Origin: an uncultured Eubacteriales bacterium
GTDB lineage: Bacteria; Bacillota; Clostridia; Oscillospirales; Oscillospiraceae
Direction: 5' to 3'
NCBI GenBank assembly: GCA_900316745.1
Contig: ONEB01000014.1
Coordinates: 416-63,481, forward strand
DNA: 63,066 bases
Position numbers and translations under genes: made by a program. Each line of letters begins with the position of its first letter. Position 1 is the stretch's first letter. The notes beneath the pieces were generated by a model. That model did no database searches and was not told the origin of the DNA. It saw only the letters and a list, made by a program, of their open reading frames with translations. Below are positions 16,389-60,289 of this stretch, in pieces.

Positions 16389-17548
16389 TCAGCGCGATAT
16401 TGTAATCGAAATGGAATATACGCCAACGGCGCCGGCATTGTCAAATCCATCAATATAGATCTTTGCCGGAACCGAAACCGTTCCGATCGTATCGGCATAG
16501 TCAGTGAGATCCACCACAACTCGGACGTTATCCGCTTCAATGTTCTGGAGGACATCACTTTTGGCACGGACTGTCACGGCGAGCGACGTTGTCCAGTGGC
16601 TTCCGAGACGCCGGACTGGTTGCGCAGGGCATTGTCCAGCGGGATGGTAAATGTGTTTTCATAGCTGTTGGCAAATTCACTGAGATTCACGGTGCCGACA
16701 ACGAGCTGATTGAGCTGCTGCAGAGCAGCCGTATCGCCGATGACCTGGATCTTCTCCGGTTCAACTGTCACAACGCAGTCGTCCGCCGTCGCGCCGCCGC
16801 CCTCAATGAGGTTCACCGTCAGTTTGAGCTCTTTCTGCATGAGAATCGGGAGCGTCACGCTCACGGCTTTCGTATCGCTTACGACATTGGCAGGCGTGAT
16901 CTCCTCGCCATTGGCGTTGAGCAGCACATAATCCGTCTTCAGAGGACCGACTGTCGCGCTCACATTCTCACGATCAAGATAGACGCAGGCTTCGTTGATA
17001 TCGCTGAGCTCGCTCTCAGGACCATAGAGCGTAATCGTGGAGGGCTCGACCACCACAGCATCCGCCATATAGCCATCCGCGATGCTGCCGGTAAAGACGC
17101 CTTTCACTTCAACCGTCTTGGTGCTCTCAGCCGCGACCGTAAAGCTGATGGTCTCCGGCGTTCGTCTCACAACGCTGATATCACTCCGGTTGATGCGATC
17201 CGGAAACGCGATGCTGTAAGTCAGCTCCGTCTCACGCGCCTGTGAAATACCGCTGACATCAACGATCGCCTGAAGCTCAGACGCGTGCAGGCTGCCGATG
17301 CTCGCGCGGGATCCGCGCACCTGAACGGTTACACTGTCGACTTCCGGATCGGTAATGATAAGTCCCTTGGTCGTGCGCAGCGCATCTGCGCCCTGAAACA
17401 CCACGGGGACATTATAAAACGTCTGATTGAATGTCGTCGTATCAGACTCCGCCAGATAAGCCCAGACGAAAAACGAGATCAGTAGCGAAACGATGATCCA
17501 GGTGACGCGGTTATTTAAAAGCTTGTTAAGTGTTTCCGTTCTTTTCAT
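16389..17548 (-). pseudogene. cdaR: CdaR-like YbbR-domain protein, frameshifted near its C-terminus
   Basis: CdaR binds and modulates the diadenylate cyclase CdaA from outside the membrane. From ATG 17548 (GGAGAG 5 bases upstream, overlapping the cdaA end by 23 bases) the protein has one membrane span (about residues 15-35) and successive YbbR repeats. The frame ends early at 16574. The reading frame that follows immediately (from about 16592 down to 16389) continues a good YbbR repeat (TSLAVTVRAKSD and onward). A single missing base between 16590 and 16598 would join them into about 386 residues. Either the gene lost its last half-domain, or this is a sequence error. No slippery heptamer is visible. 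Confidence 0.8.
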
Positions 17549-18404
17549 GCTGTCTCTCCAAACGGCGCTCATTGAGCCATGTCAGGATCGTACGTTTCTT
17601 CTGCTTTTCCTGGGGCATAATCTCATTGCGGAGAATGGCCTCGAAGGTCTCGGCAGTCAGGCGGCGCTTGAGCATGCCGTCCACTGCGACCGAAATGCTT
17701 CCGGTCTCCTCCGAAACAATCACGACCACCGCGTCAGACTGCTCGCTCATGCCGATACCGGCGCGATGCCGCGTGCCGAGATCGGGAGAGAGATTGATGT
17801 TGCCGGTAAGTGGCAGCACGCAGCCGGCGGCACGGATGCGGCCGGAGCGAATGATCACAGCGCCGTCATGCAGAGGCGCTTTGTTGAAAAAGAGGTTTTT
17901 CAGCAGTTCAGCCGTGACGGCAGAGTCGATCACTGTACCGCTTCGGATCTGCTCTTCCAAAACATTCTTGCGCTCAAAGACGATCAGCGCGCCGGTACGC
18001 GACGCGGAAAGATCCTGACAGGCTTTGAGCGTTTGCGAAATGACGGATTCGGCTTCAAAGTTGTCGATCTTTCGATTTCCAAACAGCCCCGGCAGATTGC
18101 TGCCGACGCGCTCGAGCAGTCTGCGAAGCTCAGGCTGGAACAGGATGACAAGAGCAATCAAACCCAGTTCGACCGTGCGCTGGAGCAGACGGTATACCAT
18201 ATTCAGTTCCAATACGCCGGAGAGCCAAAGTGCGATAAGGATGACAAGGATGCCGCGCGCAAGCCGAAAAGAGTTTGTGCGGCGAATCAGCATAATCAGC
18301 TTATAGATCACATAAGCGACGATCAGAATATCAGCGATGTCTGATACACGGATTGTCGAGATCAGGTTCCCCAAGCGCAGCCAGAATGTAGTAAATTGGG
18401 TCAT
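17526..18404 (-). CDS. cdaA: diadenylate cyclase CdaA
   Basis: CdaA makes the essential messenger c-di-AMP, which controls potassium and osmolyte balance and wall integrity. Three membrane spans fill about residues 10-90, followed by a coiled linker and the DisA_N catalytic domain with DGA at 180-182 and RHR at 212-214. The 292-residue length from ATG 18404 is normal; GTGAGG lies 8 bases upstream. An ATG at 18479 sits inside the promoter and was rejected. The gene begins the leftward run with cdaR. The glmM gene that often follows is absent here. Confidence 0.96.
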   Translation of the reverse strand: MTQFTTFWLRLGNLISTIRVSDIADILIVAYVIYKLIMLIRRTNSFRLARGILVILIALWLSGVLELNMVYRLLQRTVELGLIALVILFQPELRRLLERVGSNLPGLFGNRKIDNFEAESVISQTLKACQDLSASRTGALIVFERKNVLEEQIRSGTVIDSAVTAELLKNLFFNKAPLHDGAVIIRSGRIRAAGCVLPLTGNINLSPDLGTRHRAGIGMSEQSDAVVVIVSEETGSISVAVDGMLKRRLTAETFEAILRNEIMPQEKQKKRTILTWLNERRLERQHEKNGNT

Positions 18405-18467
18405 AAATGAGTCCTCACATCCCGTTAACGCCGAAATAACAAAACTTGTCCTATTTTCAGATATAAT

Positions 18468-18496
18468 ATTATAACGCAAGAGGCGAAAAATAGCAA
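18468..18496 (-). promoter_or_regulatory. cdaA promoter
   Basis: On the - strand, a -35 TTGCTA (18491-18496), a 17-base spacer and a -10 TATAAT (18468-18473) give a SigA-type promoter about 60 bases before the cdaA start. Confidence 0.75.
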
Positions 18497-18691: not shown

Positions 18692-19291
18692 TCAATTCTG
18701 AAACGCCTCGGCTTTGCGCGCTGCGTCACAGATGAGCTGGATGCAGGTATCGTAGCCAAGAACGCCGGTGTCCAGCGAGAGTGTATAATTTCGGGTATCC
18801 CCCCAGCGCTTGCCGGTGAACTGTTCATAGAACGTGCGGCGCGCAGCATCGGTCTTCTGCATTTTCTTCTGGATCTCGGTAGGATTGTCGCTGCCGATCA
18901 GCTCTCTGACCCGCGCCGCGCGATGGATGTCGCTGGCGTAGAGAAACACATTCAGGCTGGGGATGTTCGCCTTCTCCATGATGTCATCCGCGCAGCGGCC
19001 CAGAATGACACACGTGCCCTTCGAGGCGAGGTCAAGAATGATGCTGTGCTCAATCGAGTGGATGTTGTCGCTCAGGTCGCGGTAGGCACTGGGCGCAATG
19101 ATGCGCATGAACACGCCCGCGCGGGTGAGCTCCTCCTCCACGCGTTCGACGTCCGGCATTTTCTCGCCGCTTTCCTCTGCCGCGGCCTTGATGATGTCGC
19201 GGTCATAAAACTCCACGCCGAGCTCCTTGGCAACGCCCTTGCCGATGGTGTGCCCGCCGGCGCCGTATTCTCTGCTGATGGTAATGATCAC
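18692..19291 (-). CDS. cytidylate kinase-like family protein
   Basis: The 199-residue product begins with a nucleotide-binding segment (TISREYGAGGHTIGKGVAKEL), which matches the cytidylate-kinase-like (Cytidylate_kin2) family of P-loop proteins. It differs from the main Cmk, and no specific substrate is known. GTG 19291 is preferred because AAAGGAG lies 9 bases upstream; the ATG at 19300 directly abuts that site. The gene stands alone with its own terminator. Confidence 0.8.
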   Translation of the reverse strand: MIITISREYGAGGHTIGKGVAKELGVEFYDRDIIKAAAEESGEKMPDVERVEEELTRAGVFMRIIAPSAYRDLSDNIHSIEHSIILDLASKGTCVILGRCADDIMEKANIPSLNVFLYASDIHRAARVRELIGSDNPTEIQKKMQKTDAARRTFYEQFTGKRWGDTRNYTLSLDTGVLGYDTCIQLICDAARKAEAFQN

Positions 19292-19398
19292 AGCTGACAT
19301 CTCCTTTTTGAAATCGGATGCTTATGCCGGTATTTTATCACAAGAACGACCGGATGCCAAGAACTATGCAGGAAAAACGAACTGTTTTTTTGCTCTGG

Positions 19399-19501: not shown

Positions 19502-19539
19502 ACACTCCAAGGTACACATTCAAGTGAACCTTGGAGTGT
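19502..19539 (-). terminator. terminator of the redox cassette
   Basis: A perfect 12-bp stem (19502-19513 with 19528-19539) has a 14-base loop and is followed on the - strand by a U-rich TCTTCTTGTTTG. It lies 20 bases past the last gene of the cassette. Confidence 0.8.
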
Positions 19540-19559
19540 TAATTGATTTTATGAAAAGA

Positions 19560-20042
19560 TTACACTAAATCCAGTCCTACGATCCAGTCTTTGAGCTCCT
19601 TCTCGGAGGTACGGCCGGAAAAGCGTTTGCCGGAAAGCACCGTTGCGCCCTTGGCGAGCATGGCGATCCTGCTCTGCCCCTCACCCAGCGGGCTGCCGCC
19701 GGAGGTGAAGAACGGGACGATCGTCTTGCCGCTGAAGTCATAGGCTTCGAGGAACGTGTCGATGATTGCGGGCTCGCGGTACCACCAGATCGGGAAACCG
19801 AGGAAAATGACGTCCGCATCCGCCACGGGAGCGTCGGCGTCCGCCATCTCGGGGCGGCAGTTGGGATCCGCCATCTCGACGGTGCTGCGGGCCTTCTTAT
19901 CCATCCAGTTTAAATCCCCGCGCTTGTACGGCACGGCGGGACGGATCTCATAGGCCTCAGCTTCCGCCGCCGCGGCGAGGGTCTGCGCCAGACGGGACGT
20001 GCTGCCGCTGGCAGAAAAATACGCGACTAATTTCTTACTCAT
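19560..20042 (-). CDS. flavodoxin (cassette gene 8)
   Basis: This is a 160-residue cytoplasmic flavodoxin. The FMN phosphate loop SASGSTSRLA is at the N-terminus, and the flavodoxin_4-type block LGFPIWWYREP precedes YDFSGKTIVPFFTSGGSP. It would carry electrons or act as an FMN-dependent reductase. It is the last gene of the cassette, 15 bases after the DUF362 gene, with AAAGGAG before ATG. It resembles the lipoprotein flavodoxin at 24058, so the cassette encodes one flavodoxin for each side of the membrane. Confidence 0.88.
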   Translation of the reverse strand: MSKKLVAYFSASGSTSRLAQTLAAAAEAEAYEIRPAVPYKRGDLNWMDKKARSTVEMADPNCRPEMADADAPVADADVIFLGFPIWWYREPAIIDTFLEAYDFSGKTIVPFFTSGGSPLGEGQSRIAMLAKGATVLSGKRFSGRTSEKELKDWIVGLDLV

Positions 20043-20057
20043 ATTCTAACTCCTTTA

Positions 20058-21095
20058 TTATCCGCGTTTGTTGCGGCCCCAGAAGACGTTGTAGCGGTCG
20101 GGCTTCCAGCCGGGCTTGACATCCTTCACAGCTTCAGCGGCGGTAATGACGGCGTCATCGTTGTCGATGTCGATCAGCGTGTAGCGGTCGTTGCCCATTC
20201 CGAGCTCCTTCATATAGCTCAGCTGACGCAGGCCGTGACGGGTCTCCACGCGCTCGATAAGCGCCTTTCCCGCACCCTCCGGCAGATTGTAGATCAGATC
20301 CACGCAGGCGTTGTCGACTGCCAGAATATCGAGCGAGGCAAGAATGCCCACGTCCGGCGTCACGACGGGCTCGGCCTCGGGGCCTTCGCAGTCGCAGGAG
20401 ACGGACATATTGCGCATGGTATTGATATAGCAGACGTGCGGCGCGAAGTGGTCGATGGTCGCCTTTGTGCTCTCGGAAATACGCTCCATCAGCTCTTCTT
20501 CTGAAATGCTCCACATGCCCGCGCCGGGATAGCTGTGGATATCGCGCTTGCCGATTCTGCCGTCGGCGCAGCCGATGCCGATGTTCTTGTTCGAGCCGCC
20601 GAAGCCGCCCATCATGTGGCCCTTGAAGTGCGTCAGCACCAGCAGAGATTCATAGTTCAGCATGGACTTGCCGACATGCATCTCAGTAAACCACTTGCCG
20701 CCCTTGACCGGCAGTGCAGCGACGCCCTCGGCGTCCGTGATGTCCACCGGGCAGAACGTCCAGCCGTTGATCTCCAGGGTCTTGCGGTGCTCCTCGGTGG
20801 TGTAGCGACTGCCCTCATAATAGGTGTTCGTCTCGATGATTATCGCGTCCGGCAGACGGGACTCAATCAGCTCACGCACCCAGGGTCTGGGGATGATGTT
20901 GGGGCCCTCGGCCTCACCGGTGTGCAGCTTGATCGCCACCTTGCCGGTCAGCACGGAGGAAACCTTGTCGTAGATCTTCTGCAGACCTGCTTCGGACAGG
21001 TCGCGGGTGAAAAACACCACGGAGCTCTCGCCCGTGCGCTCCTCATAAGGAACGTACTTGTTGCCGTCCTTGCCGGGGACCGGTTTGTTACTCAT
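20058..21095 (-). CDS. DUF362 domain protein (cassette gene 7)
   Basis: The 345-residue protein matches the DUF362 family (VAIKLHTGE, LLVLTHFKGHMMGGFGGSNKNIGIGC, SCDCE). Many DUF362 proteins end in a 2[4Fe-4S] ferredoxin domain. That domain is absent here, but conserved cysteines remain (IGCADG, CDCEG). The biochemical role of the family is not established; its neighbours are usually redox enzymes. AAGGAGG precedes the ATG. The 56-base gap to the upstream aldo-keto reductase is the largest in the cassette, but no promoter or terminator was seen in it. Confidence 0.85.
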   Translation of the reverse strand: MSNKPVPGKDGNKYVPYEERTGESSVVFFTRDLSEAGLQKIYDKVSSVLTGKVAIKLHTGEAEGPNIIPRPWVRELIESRLPDAIIIETNTYYEGSRYTTEEHRKTLEINGWTFCPVDITDAEGVAALPVKGGKWFTEMHVGKSMLNYESLLVLTHFKGHMMGGFGGSNKNIGIGCADGRIGKRDIHSYPGAGMWSISEEELMERISESTKATIDHFAPHVCYINTMRNMSVSCDCEGPEAEPVVTPDVGILASLDILAVDNACVDLIYNLPEGAGKALIERVETRHGLRQLSYMKELGMGNDRYTLIDIDNDDAVITAAEAVKDVKPGWKPDRYNVFWGRNKRG

Positions 21096-21151
21096 GTTGT
21101 GCCCTCCTTATAAAGATGTGTGAATACTTATCGCCACTCGAATGAAGTCTT

Positions 21152-22291
21152 TTAGAAGCTGTTCTCCGTCAGCCATGCCACAGCCTTTTCGACCGACTCT
21201 GTGATATCCTTGCCGTCTGCGGTGCTCACGGTCTGCTTTTCAAGCCCGTTGTGGAAGTCCACATGCTCAGCTTCCGCGATGGCATTCTTCAGATAATTGT
21301 TGTCATCCGAGAAACCGGGATTCGGCTGGATCTGGCAGATGCTGTACGCCTGCAGGATCGCGCTGACAGGAACCCCGTGATACACGAGGTCTTTATACTG
21401 CTCAATCTCACTCTGCTTGATCGGAGCGCTCTCCCGATAGATGCGCATGGCCTCTGCCAGCACCTTGTGGTCTTCCTCCGTGAGCCGCTCGGCCTTGTTG
21501 CTGGTCGCAGTATTGTCCTGAACCTGCTCGAGCGTGCTCATGCCGGAGAGGACCGCGATCACGTCTTCCTTTTCGAGGCAGAAGCGCACCGACCATGAAG
21601 CGATGCTCCAATCCGGATGCGCAGCCTTCATAAGCGCCTCCGCTTCCTCCGGGAGCTTTGCCAGACCGCCGCCCTTGACCGCCTCCATGATCACGACTTT
21701 TCTGCCGTGCCTGCGGATCACGTCATAGCAGGGGCCGGCCTGCACCAGTTCGCTGTCCCAGTCAATCGGGTTCAGCGCGATCTGCACGAATTCGATCTCC
21801 GGGTGCTCCGCCAGCACGCGGTCCAGCAGCTTAGCCGAGGAATGGAACGAGATGCCGAGATGGCGGATCTTCCCGTCTTCCTTCCACTTCTTCGCATGAT
21901 CGAACAGATGCGTCGTCTTTACGATCCCGCCCTTGCCGTCGTAGCCGTCATAGTAGACATTCTGGATGTTGTGCAGCAGATAATAGTCGACATACTCCAC
22001 GCCCAGCTTGTCCAACTGGCTCTGGAACACGTCCTCGATCTCATTTTCCGGAACAAGATTGAAGGTCGGGAATTTTGTCGCCACAGTGAAGCTGTCTCTC
22101 GGGTGGCGTTCGATCAGAGCCTTGCGCACAGCCGTTTCGCTCTCGCCGTTGTGATAGACGAAGCTGGTATCGAAATAAGTATAGCCTGCTTCCAGAAAAG
22201 CGTCAACCATCGCATTGAGCTGGTCATAGTCAAAATCGGTCGGGCCGGACTTCACCGGCAGTCTCATCATACCAAAGCCAAGGTTTTTCAT
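21152..22291 (-). CDS. aldo-keto reductase (cassette gene 6)
   Basis: This NADPH-dependent carbonyl reductase has a TIM-barrel fold. The tetrad is visible as D in YFDTSFVYH (with Y), K in VATKFP and H in YLLHN. The motif GISFHSS follows. The 379-residue length matches the larger bacterial group often annotated as an oxidoreductase of the aldo/keto reductase family. Its C-terminal extension has no CxxCxxC iron-sulfur motif. ATG 22291, with AAGGAG 6 bases upstream, is preferred to an in-frame TTG at 22309. It probably reduces an aldehyde or ketone; the substrate is unknown. Confidence 0.9.
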   Translation of the reverse strand: MKNLGFGMMRLPVKSGPTDFDYDQLNAMVDAFLEAGYTYFDTSFVYHNGESETAVRKALIERHPRDSFTVATKFPTFNLVPENEIEDVFQSQLDKLGVEYVDYYLLHNIQNVYYDGYDGKGGIVKTTHLFDHAKKWKEDGKIRHLGISFHSSAKLLDRVLAEHPEIEFVQIALNPIDWDSELVQAGPCYDVIRRHGRKVVIMEAVKGGGLAKLPEEAEALMKAAHPDWSIASWSVRFCLEKEDVIAVLSGMSTLEQVQDNTATSNKAERLTEEDHKVLAEAMRIYRESAPIKQSEIEQYKDLVYHGVPVSAILQAYSICQIQPNPGFSDDNNYLKNAIAEAEHVDFHNGLEKQTVSTADGKDITESVEKAVAWLTENSF

Positions 22292-22301
22292 AGCAGTCTC
22301 C

Positions 22302-23057
22302 TTATCCAAGCGCGTTATAGTCTTCTTCCGAAACGGGCTCCATCCACTCTGCCTTGCCGTCCTCGCCGGGGATCTCCAGAGCCAGATGCGAGAACCAGGA
22401 ATCGGCAGCGGCGCCGTGCCAGTGCTTCACGCCTGCCGGGATATTGATAACCGTACCCGGGGTCAGCTCAACAGGCTCCTTGCCCCACTCCTGATACCAG
22501 CCGCGTCCGCCGACGCAGATCAGCATCTGTCCGCCGCCGCAGGCCGCGTGATGGATGTGCCAGTTGTTGCGGCAGCCCGGCTCGAACGTCACATTGTACA
22601 CAGGAACCTGCTCAGTAGTGAGCGGCGCGAGATAGCTGCGGCCAACAAAGAACTGACCGTAGGGGTTCTCCTCGCCAATCGGGAAAAAGATCGTGTTCTG
22701 GTAGGCGTCCTTCTCGCTCTGCGCGGGCGCTTCCTCGTTCCAGATCTCCTTGGCCTGACGGAACACCGCCCAGCCCTTCGGCCAGCCGACATACATGGTG
22801 GCGTGGGTGATGATGGCGGCGATCTCTTCCTTTGTCACGCCGTTGTTCTTCGCGTTTTGCAGATGATAGCCCAGCGAAGAATCCGTGATGCCCGACGCCA
22901 TGAGAGATACCACCGTGATGATGCACTTGGTCTTGACGTCGATGGCTTCCTCGTTCCAGACCTCACCGAACAGCACATCGTCGTTCAGATGCGCAAACAT
23001 CGGCGCAAATTTGCCGAGCTGCTGCCGACCGGCCGTCTGGGTGATCTTCTTGCTCAT
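22302..23057 (-). CDS. carboxymuconolactone decarboxylase-cupin fusion (cassette gene 5)
   Basis: The 251-residue protein has two parts. Residues about 1-110 form a CMD/AhpD-like domain (CIITVVSLMASGITDSSLGY, GVTKEEIAAIITHATMYVGW). It has a single cysteine in place of the CxxC pair of peroxidase-active AhpD. Residues about 135-250 form a cupin with metal-ligand histidines in NNWHIHHA and GVKHWHGAA. Such fusions are usually found next to flavodoxins and aldo-keto reductases. The chemistry is unproven. GGAGG lies 8 bases before ATG 23057. Confidence 0.88.
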   Translation of the reverse strand: MSKKITQTAGRQQLGKFAPMFAHLNDDVLFGEVWNEEAIDVKTKCIITVVSLMASGITDSSLGYHLQNAKNNGVTKEEIAAIITHATMYVGWPKGWAVFRQAKEIWNEEAPAQSEKDAYQNTIFFPIGEENPYGQFFVGRSYLAPLTTEQVPVYNVTFEPGCRNNWHIHHAACGGGQMLICVGGRGWYQEWGKEPVELTPGTVINIPAGVKHWHGAAADSWFSHLALEIPGEDGKAEWMEPVSEEDYNALG

Positions 23058-23071
23058 ATCAGGTTCCTCCT

Positions 23072-23401
23072 TCAACGTTTGATAAATTTCATGTCTTTTT
23101 CCGGCAGACCGGAATCATCGGAGACGAAGCGCTCCGCCTTCATGTGCAGGTCATACTTATCCCGCAGCGCCGCAATCTCAGCCATCATGGGCGAGGCGTG
23201 GTGCGCATCGATTGCCGCCTGATCGCGCCACTGGTCAATGAGCAGCACGGTCTCGGGATCGTCCATCGGGTAAAAGTATTCGTAGCGCAGATTGCCGTCC
23301 TCGGCGCGGATGGCGTCCACGACGCCTGCGCGAACCATTTCCTCGGCAAAGGCGCGGGCGGAGCCGTTCTCGCCGGTATAATAGAGATTCACGGTAATCA
23401 T
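23072..23401 (-). CDS. putative quinol monooxygenase, ABM family (cassette gene 4)
   Basis: This 109-residue protein is an antibiotic-biosynthesis-monooxygenase (ABM) ferredoxin-like barrel: LRYEYFYPMDDPETVLLIDQW, then HHASPMM. Relatives such as YgiN oxidise or bind quinols without cofactors; others only bind small aromatics. The start ATG overlaps the TetR stop by 4 bases, so translation is coupled to the regulator. Confidence 0.85.
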   Translation of the reverse strand: MITVNLYYTGENGSARAFAEEMVRAGVVDAIRAEDGNLRYEYFYPMDDPETVLLIDQWRDQAAIDAHHASPMMAEIAALRDKYDLHMKAERFVSDDSGLPEKDMKFIKR

Positions 23402-24027
23402 TGCAGGCCTCCCAGCAGCGTACGGATAAAGGTATACGCCATATCATAAGTGCTCATATACACATAATGGATTCCGGCCTCCTGCATCGCCTCACGCTGC
23501 TTGTCCGTCACGACCGTGTAGGGATAGAGTCCGAACACGAACGGCAGGAAGGCATACAGGAAGAACTTGCGCTTCTCCACCGCGAGTGCGGGAACGAACT
23601 GCTGCAGGCAGCGATCCACCGCGTCGAGGGATTTCTTATAGGACTTCTTGAATTCCACAAGGCGCTCCATGCGCGAGTTTGCCTCCATGTCATAGAGGTT
23701 CATACTCAGAAGTTTGAGCATCAATGGGCGGCGCTCCAGAGCGTGCGCAAGCTCAGAAGACAGCGCGTCCAGAGAGAGCGTCTCCTCCCGCTCGCAGAGT
23801 CCGTCGAGGTCTGCGGCGAAGCTCTCATACTCCTGTCCAAAAAGCGCAAGGAAGATCTCTTCCTTCGTCTCAAAATAATTATAGATCGATGTTCGGGTGA
23901 AGGAGGTCAAAGCGCCTATCTCCTTGAGCGTGATCTCTTTGAAGCCCATGGTCTCATACAGTTTCCGGCAAGCGGCGATGATCTCGTCCTTCCGCGCCTT
24001 CGTCAGTTCTGCAGATCCTTTCGGCAT
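23398..24027 (-). CDS. TetR-family regulator (cassette gene 3)
   Basis: The 209-residue protein has an N-terminal TetR helix-turn-helix (about residues 10-55: ITLKEIGALTSFTRTSIYNYF) and an alpha-helical ligand domain with a long C-terminal region (FLYAFLPFVFGLYPYTVV). It lies inside the cassette, between the lipoprotein flavodoxin and the ABM gene, on the same strand. It is the obvious candidate to bind the paired palindromes at 25278-25324 and to repress its own operon. The ligand is unknown. Confidence 0.92.
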   Translation of the reverse strand: MPKGSAELTKARKDEIIAACRKLYETMGFKEITLKEIGALTSFTRTSIYNYFETKEEIFLALFGQEYESFAADLDGLCEREETLSLDALSSELAHALERRPLMLKLLSMNLYDMEANSRMERLVEFKKSYKKSLDAVDRCLQQFVPALAVEKRKFFLYAFLPFVFGLYPYTVVTDKQREAMQEAGIHYVYMSTYDMAYTFIRTLLGGLQ

Positions 24028-24057
24028 GTTTTTCTTCCTCTCTGTTCTAAATGTTTC

Positions 24058-24693
24058 TCATGCAAAAAGTTCATCCAGCTCCGGAATGTCCTTCAGCCAG
24101 TCTTCCATTTCCTCAATGGCACCGGCAGGAAAACGTTTCCCCTCTACCCAGACAGCCGTATCAGAGCAAAGCGCCTGCAGATCCTCCGCGCTGCGGCCGA
24201 TGTCGCTGGAGCCGGAGTTGCAAAACGGGATGATGGTCTTTCCGGAGAAATCATAGCTCTCGATAAAGGTGCTGATGATGCGCGGCGCCTGTCCCCACCA
24301 GATGGGATATGCCAAAACGACGATATCATACTGCTCCATGTTCTCGACAGAGCCTGCAATCGCAGGACGCGCGTCGGGGTCATTCTGCTCCTTGGAGGTG
24401 CGGGAATCGGAGTCGCCATAGTTGATATCCGCGTCCGTGTAAGGGTCGGAGGCCTGGATCTCATAGAGATCCGCGTCGAGCAGCTCCGCCGCATGTTCGG
24501 CAAGCGGGCGTGTGTTTCCGGTGCAGGAGAAATAAGCGACCAGCACCTTTGCGTCGTCCGAGCGCTTCGTCATTGCGGCCTCGCCGCTGTTTGGTTCCGT
24601 GCTTTCGGCTGCCGGCTCAGTGCTGCTCTGTCCGCAGGCGGAAAATGCAAGGATAAGCGAGAGCACCAGAAGCAAGGTGATCCATCTTTTCAT
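24058..24693 (-). CDS. exported flavodoxin lipoprotein (cassette gene 2)
   Basis: This 211-residue protein starts with a lipoprotein signal peptide: two positive residues, a hydrophobic core and the lipobox FSAC with C20 as the lipid site. A Ser/Thr/Glu-rich linker (about 21-45) follows. The rest is a flavodoxin: FMN loop SCTGNTRPLA, then YPIWWGQAPRI and YDFSGKTIIPFCNSGSS. It should sit on the outer face of the membrane. Flavodoxins are normally cytoplasmic, so its electron donor and target are of interest. A 17-base gap separates it from the flavin-reductase-like gene. Confidence 0.88.
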   Translation of the reverse strand: MKRWITLLLVLSLILAFSACGQSSTEPAAESTEPNSGEAAMTKRSDDAKVLVAYFSCTGNTRPLAEHAAELLDADLYEIQASDPYTDADINYGDSDSRTSKEQNDPDARPAIAGSVENMEQYDIVVLAYPIWWGQAPRIISTFIESYDFSGKTIIPFCNSGSSDIGRSAEDLQALCSDTAVWVEGKRFPAGAIEEMEDWLKDIPELDELFA

Positions 24694-24710
24694 GGCTGTA
24701 CCCCGCGTAG

Positions 24711-25250
24711 TCAGTTCATCTTCATGCAGCCGCCGAGGATGTCGCCGGTCTCGAGATACTCATAGGTCGGGAACTGGAACAGGGCGGGCTTGAACTTGCG
24801 GTAGTCGACCTTCCCTTTTTCGGTGAGGATCTCCTCGTCCACATAGGTGCCGACGATCTTGCAGATGAAGTTGTCGAAGCCCGCGAGATCATAGATATCC
24901 TCGACCTCACACTCGATGGAGACCTTGGCAGCGTCAATCATCGGCGCACCCTTCTCACCTACCGTATATGCAAATGCTTCGGACTTATCCTCTTTATTGC
25001 CGCTGACACAGCCCATACGGTCTGCGTCCTTCAGCCAGGAAGCGTCCACGATGTTCACCGAGACGACCTTGTTTTCCCGAATGCCCTTGTTGGTATAGTG
25101 GGCCTTGACCATGGAGAGCATCAGATGGCTGTGCGCCATGACGCCTGCGTGCGCGACCAGCGTCCAGTTCGGTTTTCCGTCTACCATAGCGCCGACGACC
25201 GTCACCGGAGCCGGATACAGAGCCAGCTGCGCACCTGTGTTCTTCTTCAT
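24711..25250 (-). CDS. flavin reductase-like (flavoredoxin) protein (cassette gene 1)
   Basis: The 179-residue protein has the FMN-binding split-barrel pattern of the flavin reductase/flavoredoxin family (YPAPVTVVGAMVDGKPN, LVAHAG, VVSVNIVDASWLKD). Members reduce or bind FMN and pass electrons on. It is the first gene after the regulated promoter, about 25 bases past the right palindrome. It could supply reduced FMN to the flavodoxins or act alone. Confidence 0.88.
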   Translation of the reverse strand: MKKNTGAQLALYPAPVTVVGAMVDGKPNWTLVAHAGVMAHSHLMLSMVKAHYTNKGIRENKVVSVNIVDASWLKDADRMGCVSGNKEDKSEAFAYTVGEKGAPMIDAAKVSIECEVEDIYDLAGFDNFICKIVGTYVDEEILTEKGKVDYRKFKPALFQFPTYEYLETGDILGGCMKMN

Positions 25251-25277
25251 CGCAAGACTTCCCTTCAGATATTATAA

Positions 25278-25325
25278 TGACACGATGTCAGAACATAGTA
25301 TAACACCATTCTGACATCGTGTCAA
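25278..25325 (-). promoter_or_regulatory. operator-promoter of the redox cassette
   Basis: On the - strand there is a consensus -35 TTGACA (25320-25325), a 17-base spacer and a -10 TATACT (25297-25302). Two 16-base arms, TGACACGATGTCAGAA (25278-25293) and its exact inverse (25309-25324), flank the -10. Each arm contains the palindrome GACA-CGA-TGTC. One overlaps the -35 and the other the start region. This is a classic arrangement for repression, most likely by the TetR protein encoded at 23398. Confidence 0.8.
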
Positions 25326-60215: not shown

Positions 60216-60289
60216 TGGCAGCGGAAGAAGGATTCGAACCCTCACAAACGGAGTCAGAGTCCGGTGTGCTACCATTACACAATTCCGCT
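60216..60289 (-). tRNA. tRNA-Gln (anticodon CUG)
   Basis: The cloverleaf folds cleanly: the acceptor AGCGGAA pairs with TTCCGCT, discriminator G73 is followed by an encoded CCA, and the anticodon loop CTCTGAC gives CUG, reading CAG. The T-arm GAGGGTTCGAATCCTTC is canonical apart from one weak pair. Gln with CUG usually accompanies a UUG isoacceptor elsewhere. It has its own promoter and terminator. Confidence 0.95.

Follow-up and report, generated by a model that had tools for sequence, protein, structure and literature searches.

Eight genes behind a promoter with paired palindromes

The stretch of DNA analyzed here, which we call the window, comprises 63,066 nucleotides from an uncultured Eubacteriales bacterium of the Oscillospiraceae (contig ONEB01000014.1). 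It contains, on the minus strand from position 25250 to position 19560, eight open reading frames (ORFs) which an earlier note, made from the sequence alone, had read as one inducible redox unit. The order and strand given there were correct, and so were the families, as each of the eight proteins scored above its Pfam cut-off (Flavin_Reduct, Flavodoxin_4 twice, TetR_N with TetR_C_34, ABM, CMD with Cupin_2, Aldo_ket_red, and DUF362). In the direction of transcription, the genes encode a flavoredoxin-like flavin mononucleotide (FMN) protein (24711..25250), whose nearest solved relatives are 3bnk and 2d5m; an exported, lipoprotein-type Flavodoxin_4 protein (24058..24693), related by sequence to 3klb, 4ici, and 4j8p; a TetR-family regulator (23398..24027); an ABM-domain protein (23072..23401); a CMD-cupin fusion protein (22302..23057); an aldo-keto reductase (AKR) lacking ferredoxin cysteines (21152..22291); a DUF362 protein of the cytoplasmic form lacking a ferredoxin insert (20058..21095); and a cytoplasmic Flavodoxin_4 protein (19560..20042), which scored 198.3 bits against NF005501 (cut-off 198). 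With the preferred start codons the genes are separated by 17, 30, −4, 14, 10, 56, and 15 bases, consistent with the short gaps or overlaps described previously. For CMD-cupin and the AKR we preferred the ATG starts at 23057 and 22291, both of which are preceded by AAGGAG-type ribosome sites; the mechanical ORF starts, TTG codons at 23075 and 22309, would change the two gaps to −4 and −8.

The promoter ahead of the first gene, TTGACA-N17-TATACT (25297..25325, minus strand), has a TG before the −10 box, matches at 11 of 12 bases, and gave the best score in the 8 kb scanned; its layout is conserved (see below). At the other end, a terminator hairpin (19502..19539, minus strand) closes the unit as proposed: the 79-nt region folded with −27.9 kcal/mol, whereas shuffled sequences averaged −10.5 (z −6.3) and 0 of 200 folded as well, even though a simple terminator scanner did not report this hairpin. 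Over both strands there were also weak internal promoter-like matches (7 versus 3.5 expected) and terminator-like matches (13 versus 6.0 expected), so that an additional internal promoter may exist.

A feature of this promoter that goes beyond the earlier note is a perfect 16-bp inverted repeat (25278-25293 and 25309-25324) flanking the −10 box. This repeat consists of two 13-bp palindromes of the form TGACA-N3-TGTCA, with 34 bp from the start of one to that of the other. Operator O1 (TGACACGATGTCA, 25312..25324, minus strand), the upstream one, overlaps the −35 hexamer, and operator O2 (TGACATCGTGTCA, 25278..25290, minus strand), the downstream one, lies over the predicted transcription start. 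The tetR gene is located inside the unit it would control, and palindromic operators lie over the promoter of that unit. No third operator was found in the window with up to one mismatch allowed. As two one-mismatch matches are not rare by chance in the window (at least two occurred in 12 of 100 shuffles), the weight of the operator pair rests on its exact paired copies and on their conservation. The 13-mer occurred 79 times in 1,153,617 bases of retrieved loci plus window, where simple arithmetic (ten fixed bases, even composition) gives about one; for this count, downstream background and backward-sequence controls were used in place of a shuffle control, and the 321,438 bases of downstream background contained no operator.

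Operator pairs, TetR, and gene content in other genomes

To look for the operators independently of the genes, we searched for the exact paired pattern alone in 394 genomes of the order, with a backward control alongside. It occurred at 20 places in 19 genomes, and the backward control gave 0. In a phylum sample, the pair was present in 2 of 398 genomes, the source genome and G843, which may be unrelated. When 4.7 to 13.5 kb were retrieved around each of the 19 places outside the window, 18 of them were found to precede genes of the same families, counting one (L140) where the gene is an 87-residue flavodoxin fragment and one (L131) recognized by eye only; the clear exception was L145. TetR was encoded in the first operon at 15 of the 19 places, and a CMD-cupin gene was nearby at 9.

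Combining the operator-only places with the CMD-cupin loci and a second site of the source genome gave 58 distinct pairs, defined by one exact site, at most two mismatches in total, and starts 32-38 bp apart; sampled genomes may overlap named database records in this set, as only identical operator stretches were merged. The start-to-start spacing was 36 bp in 33 pairs, 34 bp in 21, and another value in 4. In nearly all pairs, O1 shared a TTGACA start and a TATAAT-like box lay between O1 and O2; L145 and L077 were the clear departures. Of the 58 pairs, 57 preceded family genes (56 by script, L131 by eye). With L131 left out of the counts, the first operons of the 58 pairs contained TetR in 44 cases, Flavodoxin_4 in 36, CMD-cupin in 35, ABM in 19, AKR6-type proteins in 15, flavoredoxin in 14, DUF4405 in 12, DUF362 in 10, FMN_red in 6, window- or ferredoxin-type AKR in 5, ArsP_1 permease in 4, esterase in 3, LtrA and Fe-ADH in 2 each, and MATE and nitroreductase in 1 each. 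TetR, flavodoxin, CMD-cupin, and ABM are the common members, and flavoredoxin, the AKRs, DUF362, DUF4405, the permease, and others are variable. The recurring partners are mostly reductases and FMN proteins; nitroreductase, Fe-ADHs, lipoprotein esterases, and permeases are rarer.

The link between operator and regulator was assayed by co-occurrence, scoring a single operator, in those 65 of 80 CMD-cupin loci that have at least 2.5 kb of upstream sequence. Operator and TetR occurred together in 33 loci and were both missing from 28; there were three loci with operator only (L027, L043, and L050) and one with TetR only (L061, in which the flavoredoxin gene begins at the contig edge). The Fisher p value was 6e-14 with relatedness ignored; operator pairs were present in 26 of the 65. 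Operator spacing also clustered on a tree of 44 TetRs, 43 of which could be labelled with a spacing of 34 or 36: four changes were needed versus a shuffled mean of 14, and none of 500 shuffles was as low. Because the operator pair precedes the same families and because operator and TetR co-occur, we are confident that the eight-gene unit belongs, as one operon, to a modular TetR regulon. That single-purpose genes with no relation to one another came together here by chance is a reading that draws on the fact that every family is common by itself, but it is barely credible given that neighbourhoods and operators are conserved across many genomes.

Several results weigh against the wider explanation proposed below, an autoregulated operon with a role in detoxification. 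Both the co-occurrence count and the result on the tree are inflated by near-copies, and in 28 of the 65 loci CMD-cupin genes occur with neither this TetR nor the operator. The set is patchy, with TetR homologs (E 1e-25) in 13 of 119 relatives. The pair at L145 (1787-1832) lacks the −35/−10 layout and has unrelated genes downstream, and that at L140 precedes a mere fragment. No DUF4405 electron donor for the exported flavodoxin was found in the source genome (PF14358, E 0.001, in a 92.5% complete assembly). Finally, neighbours of CMD-cupin loci served as seeds for the family models, a bias that the set found through the operator alone escapes and the others do not.

The eight-gene combination itself is a unit in part only. 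A subset consisting of TetR, ABM, CMD-cupin, and flavodoxin, often with flavoredoxin and DUF362, recurs, and ABM, CMD-cupin, DUF362, and flavodoxin genes are consecutive in the close relatives L002, L004, and L005; DUF362 homologs occur in 27 of 60 relatives (E 0.001, weak ones counted). The full set was absent from every other locus examined. Two genes of the window are extras at their places: the lipoprotein flavodoxin, which follows flavoredoxin and precedes TetR, and the AKR, which follows CMD-cupin and precedes DUF362. As members are swapped between genomes, a fixed eight-gene pathway was rejected. The idea of an inducible redox unit is well supported by the dual-operator promoter and by the co-occurrence of TetR and operator across genomes.

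With one mismatch allowed, the source genome contains 11 operator sites, 3 of them exact, versus 3 in the backward control; thus, most of the one-mismatch sites may be due to chance. Apart from the two of the window, there is one exact site, which is found on contig C30 (91067 region; L149:6568-6616), has a TTGACA-N17-TATAAT layout, and lies ahead of a gene for a ferredoxin-domain AKR; its upstream partner carries two mismatches. On the basis of this arrangement we predict that the ferredoxin-domain AKR is a second target of the regulon. At two other loci, operator pairs lie ahead of lipoprotein esterase genes on the contig of the TetR operon, as a second regulon operon (L042:2812-2860 and L045:4388-4436). 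No description of the operator or regulon was found in the open-licence literature searched.

Elsewhere in the window, the downstream neighbours of the operon are genes for a cytidylate-kinase-like protein (18692-19300) and a CdaA-type diadenylate cyclase (17526-18479), and the sole RNA gene found is a tRNA-Gln (CTG) at 60216-60289.

Properties of the encoded proteins

The first gene product, which the earlier note had called flavin-reductase-like, aligned almost full length with the flavoredoxins 3bnk (E 1.4e-24) and 2d5m (E 4.5e-17) and scored only 30.9 bits against the RutF flavin reductase model TIGR03615 (cut-off 254.75). The CMD-cupin protein matched the CMD structure 4g9q and the cupins 2f4p, 4bif, 4uxa, and 8oz8. 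Its two domains resemble PcaC and the mandelonitrile-lyase-type cupins (4bif, 4uxa) but differ from them in being fused in one chain; its scores were below the cut-offs for PcaC 4-carboxymuconolactone decarboxylase (TIGR02425, 51.4 versus 155.7 bits) and for (R)-mandelonitrile lyase cupins (NF049940, 107.9 versus 140 bits). That the CMD domain acts as an AhpD-type thiol peroxidase was rejected by comparison with the AhpD cysteine motif, since S61, L62, and Y64 precede the conserved His65 and there is no cysteine pair. CMD-cupin proteins 65-69% identical to that of the window occur in records titled Elusimicrobium, Elusimicrobia, or Melainabacteria (L079, L091, L094, L097, and L099). Cluster cysteines present in relatives of the window AKR are missing from the AKR itself. 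The idea that this AKR is unique to the window proved wrong, since relatives 85-86% identical are present in L044 and L134; in a genome of the same genus (L007), an AKR 64% identical, a 329-residue fragment at a contig end, is encoded about 0.5 kb downstream of DUF362.

These AKR and DUF362 proteins bear on the possibility that the operon is an iron-sparing or oxidative/nitrosative stress set, in which flavodoxins, the cluster-free AKR, and DUF362 replace iron-sulfur proteins under iron shortage or cluster damage. Flavodoxins are encoded here instead of a ferredoxin, and the absence of a ferredoxin domain from DUF362, claimed previously, was borne out: CxxCxxC was found neither in the window protein nor in the 28 distinct relatives listed. 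However, ferredoxin domains are present in the AKR predicted as second target, which weakens any strictly iron-sulfur-free theme, and in other genomes the regulon includes Fe-ADHs and DUF4405, a family of heme cytochromes. We consider this explanation fairly improbable.

The first flavodoxin begins with a signal ending in LILAFSAC, which, by the lipobox rule, we take to be of the lipoprotein type. The placing of flavodoxins both inside and outside the membrane, as envisaged earlier, is not peculiar to the window, as lipoprotein and cytoplasmic forms are encoded together in 12 of 56 regulon operons. Across the retrieved loci, a rough rule assigned lipoprotein signals to 26 of 92 flavodoxins, to 9 of 32 DUF362 proteins, and to all 4 esterases. 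Among AKR, AKR17, ArsP, and DLH proteins it picked out 5 of 44, but it picked out 0 of 88 CMD-cupin proteins and 0 of 42 TetRs. A duplicate filter dropped the window lipoprotein flavodoxin from the 92, and the 56-operon count flags it. Lipoprotein flavodoxin and DUF4405 genes occurred jointly in 9 of the 56 operons, the flavodoxin only in 7, DUF4405 only in 3, and neither in 37.

This joint occurrence raised the possibility of an extracytoplasmic electron transfer or respiration module in which the exported flavodoxin and the DUF4405 cytochrome send electrons outward. According to PMC11334425, DUF4405 is a heme b cytochrome found in clusters with Flavodoxin_4 that serve extracytosolic electron transfer; the exported Flavodoxin_4 of the window and the nine operons that also have a DUF4405 gene resemble those clusters. 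In contrast, the flavodoxins described there are flavinylated by ApbE, whereas the window flavodoxin, read by eye, has no obvious insert of that kind, the window operon has no apbE (two ApbE matches in the source genome lie outside it), and the source genome has no DUF4405 match. As most of the operons have neither gene, we regard such a module as quite improbable.

For the DUF362 protein, no solved relative was found by sequence at E 0.1. Its predicted model, built with 10 sequences, had a mean predicted local distance difference test score (pLDDT) of 75.7 and a predicted template modeling score (pTM) of 0.82; the other four models had pLDDT values of 63.6-66.6. The best Foldseek matches of the model were LarA-family structures (E 3.4e-6), with a template modeling (TM) score of only 0.37, and a profile alignment with LarA (hhalign) gave a probability of 48.5% and E 1.8e-4. 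In that alignment H160, K170, and H187 pair with H169, K179, and H195 of the LarA set; K170 and H187 are present in 29 of 29 rows and H160 in all 28 rows that have a letter at its position. These residues would correspond to His174, Lys184, and His200 of LarA1, which are catalytic or cofactor-binding according to PMC11770544, where DUF362 and DUF2088 are also placed in the same Pfam clan and DUF362 thereby shares a clan with the lactate racemase (LarA) superfamily. With LarA folds as the best matches of its model and three cofactor-site residues aligned, DUF362 may resemble LarA; it differs in being another Pfam family and in having Arg97 near the place where LarA1 has His108, its first catalytic histidine.

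The source genome has adjacent larB-, larC-, and larE-like genes (contig C24, L192:4735-7470, minus strand) and no LarA (Lar_N) match in its 92.5% complete assembly; G379 and G002 likewise have larC without Lar_N. The ferredoxin-less DUF362 protein might then be a nickel-pincer-nucleotide enzyme served by a larBCE operon lacking a detectable LarA. If so, nickel-pincer hydride chemistry would enter the inducible detoxification set proposed below and DUF362 would gain a function. We consider this highly doubtful, as G045 (98% complete, DUF362 69% identical) gave no match for larC and none for larE that reached the cut-off, and as some DUF362 relatives appear to be exported and could hardly obtain the cofactor in the cytoplasm. 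In addition, no larC match was found in G005 or in G117 and G410, which have operator-linked loci with DUF362 genes. The relatives with lipoprotein signals are those of L028, L061, L062, L063, L065, L066, L142, and L148, several of which adjoin an ArsP_1-type permease gene; judging by these signals, some DUF362 proteins seem to be exported and others cytoplasmic.

Proposed control and role of the regulon

Among 63 relatives of the TetR protein many positions of the ligand domain are at least 95% conserved, and Cys20 is present in 60 of the 60 aligned rows with a letter there (other cysteines are less constant, C140 occurring in 40 of 64 rows and C78 in 21 of 60). This conservation suggests that the relatives respond to a common inducer. 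We propose that TetR dimers bound at O1, in the −35 region, and at O2, at the start, would exclude RNA polymerase from the −10 box between them, and that repression would be lifted by an inducer in the conserved ligand domain or by a reaction at the invariant Cys20. Derepression would then lead to joint synthesis of the operon products and of the C30 ferredoxin-domain AKR, whose promoter layout matches. The flavoredoxin and flavodoxins would carry electrons on FMN, with the lipoprotein flavodoxin working outside the membrane; the AKRs would reduce carbonyls, and the ABM and CMD-cupin proteins may act on quinone-like or enol/lactone-like intermediates.

A comparable system is NemR-NemA-GloA of E. 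coli, in which, as in the window operon, a TetR-family repressor stands beside reductases; according to PMC7464077, NemR answers quinones, glyoxals, and other electrophiles through cysteines, those listed there being 21, 98, 106, 116, 149, and 153. The genes and the operator of that system differ from those of the window, and we do not equate Cys20 with any NemR cysteine. The resemblance would be one of working and not of membership.

As reductases and FMN proteins dominate the regulon, we think its likeliest role is an inducible response to reactive carbonyl, quinone-like, or nitro compounds, for which the chances seem about even; the quinone, aldehyde, or other aromatic electrophile suggested earlier as substrate may be among them. 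For the proposal as a whole, an autoregulated TetR operon in a modular regulon whose products form an inducible reductive detoxification set, we likewise see roughly equal chances of its being right or wrong.

The regulon could instead be a catabolic or biotransformation set, by which one plant- or diet-derived aromatic, sensed by TetR, is converted as substrate or electron sink. CMD and ABM domains are known from aromatic metabolism, the ligand domain is conserved, and many of the named relatives were sampled from the gut of ruminants or rabbits, which is rich in plant phenolics (and heavily sampled). However, gene content is too variable for one fixed pathway, the labelled families include no recurrent ring-opening, CoA-ligase, or decarboxylase core, and the CMD-cupin score is well under the PcaC cut-off. 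We therefore consider a catabolic set unlikely, though deserving of serious attention.

The practical value of the operators is that two TGACA-N3-TGTCA sites around a −10 box predict co-responding genes in many uncultured gut Clostridia. This DNA signature covers CMD-cupin, DUF362, DUF4405, and AKR proteins that have no assigned role, and it places flavodoxins of the exported and the cytoplasmic kind under a common control system, opening the question of the inducer to a reporter test.

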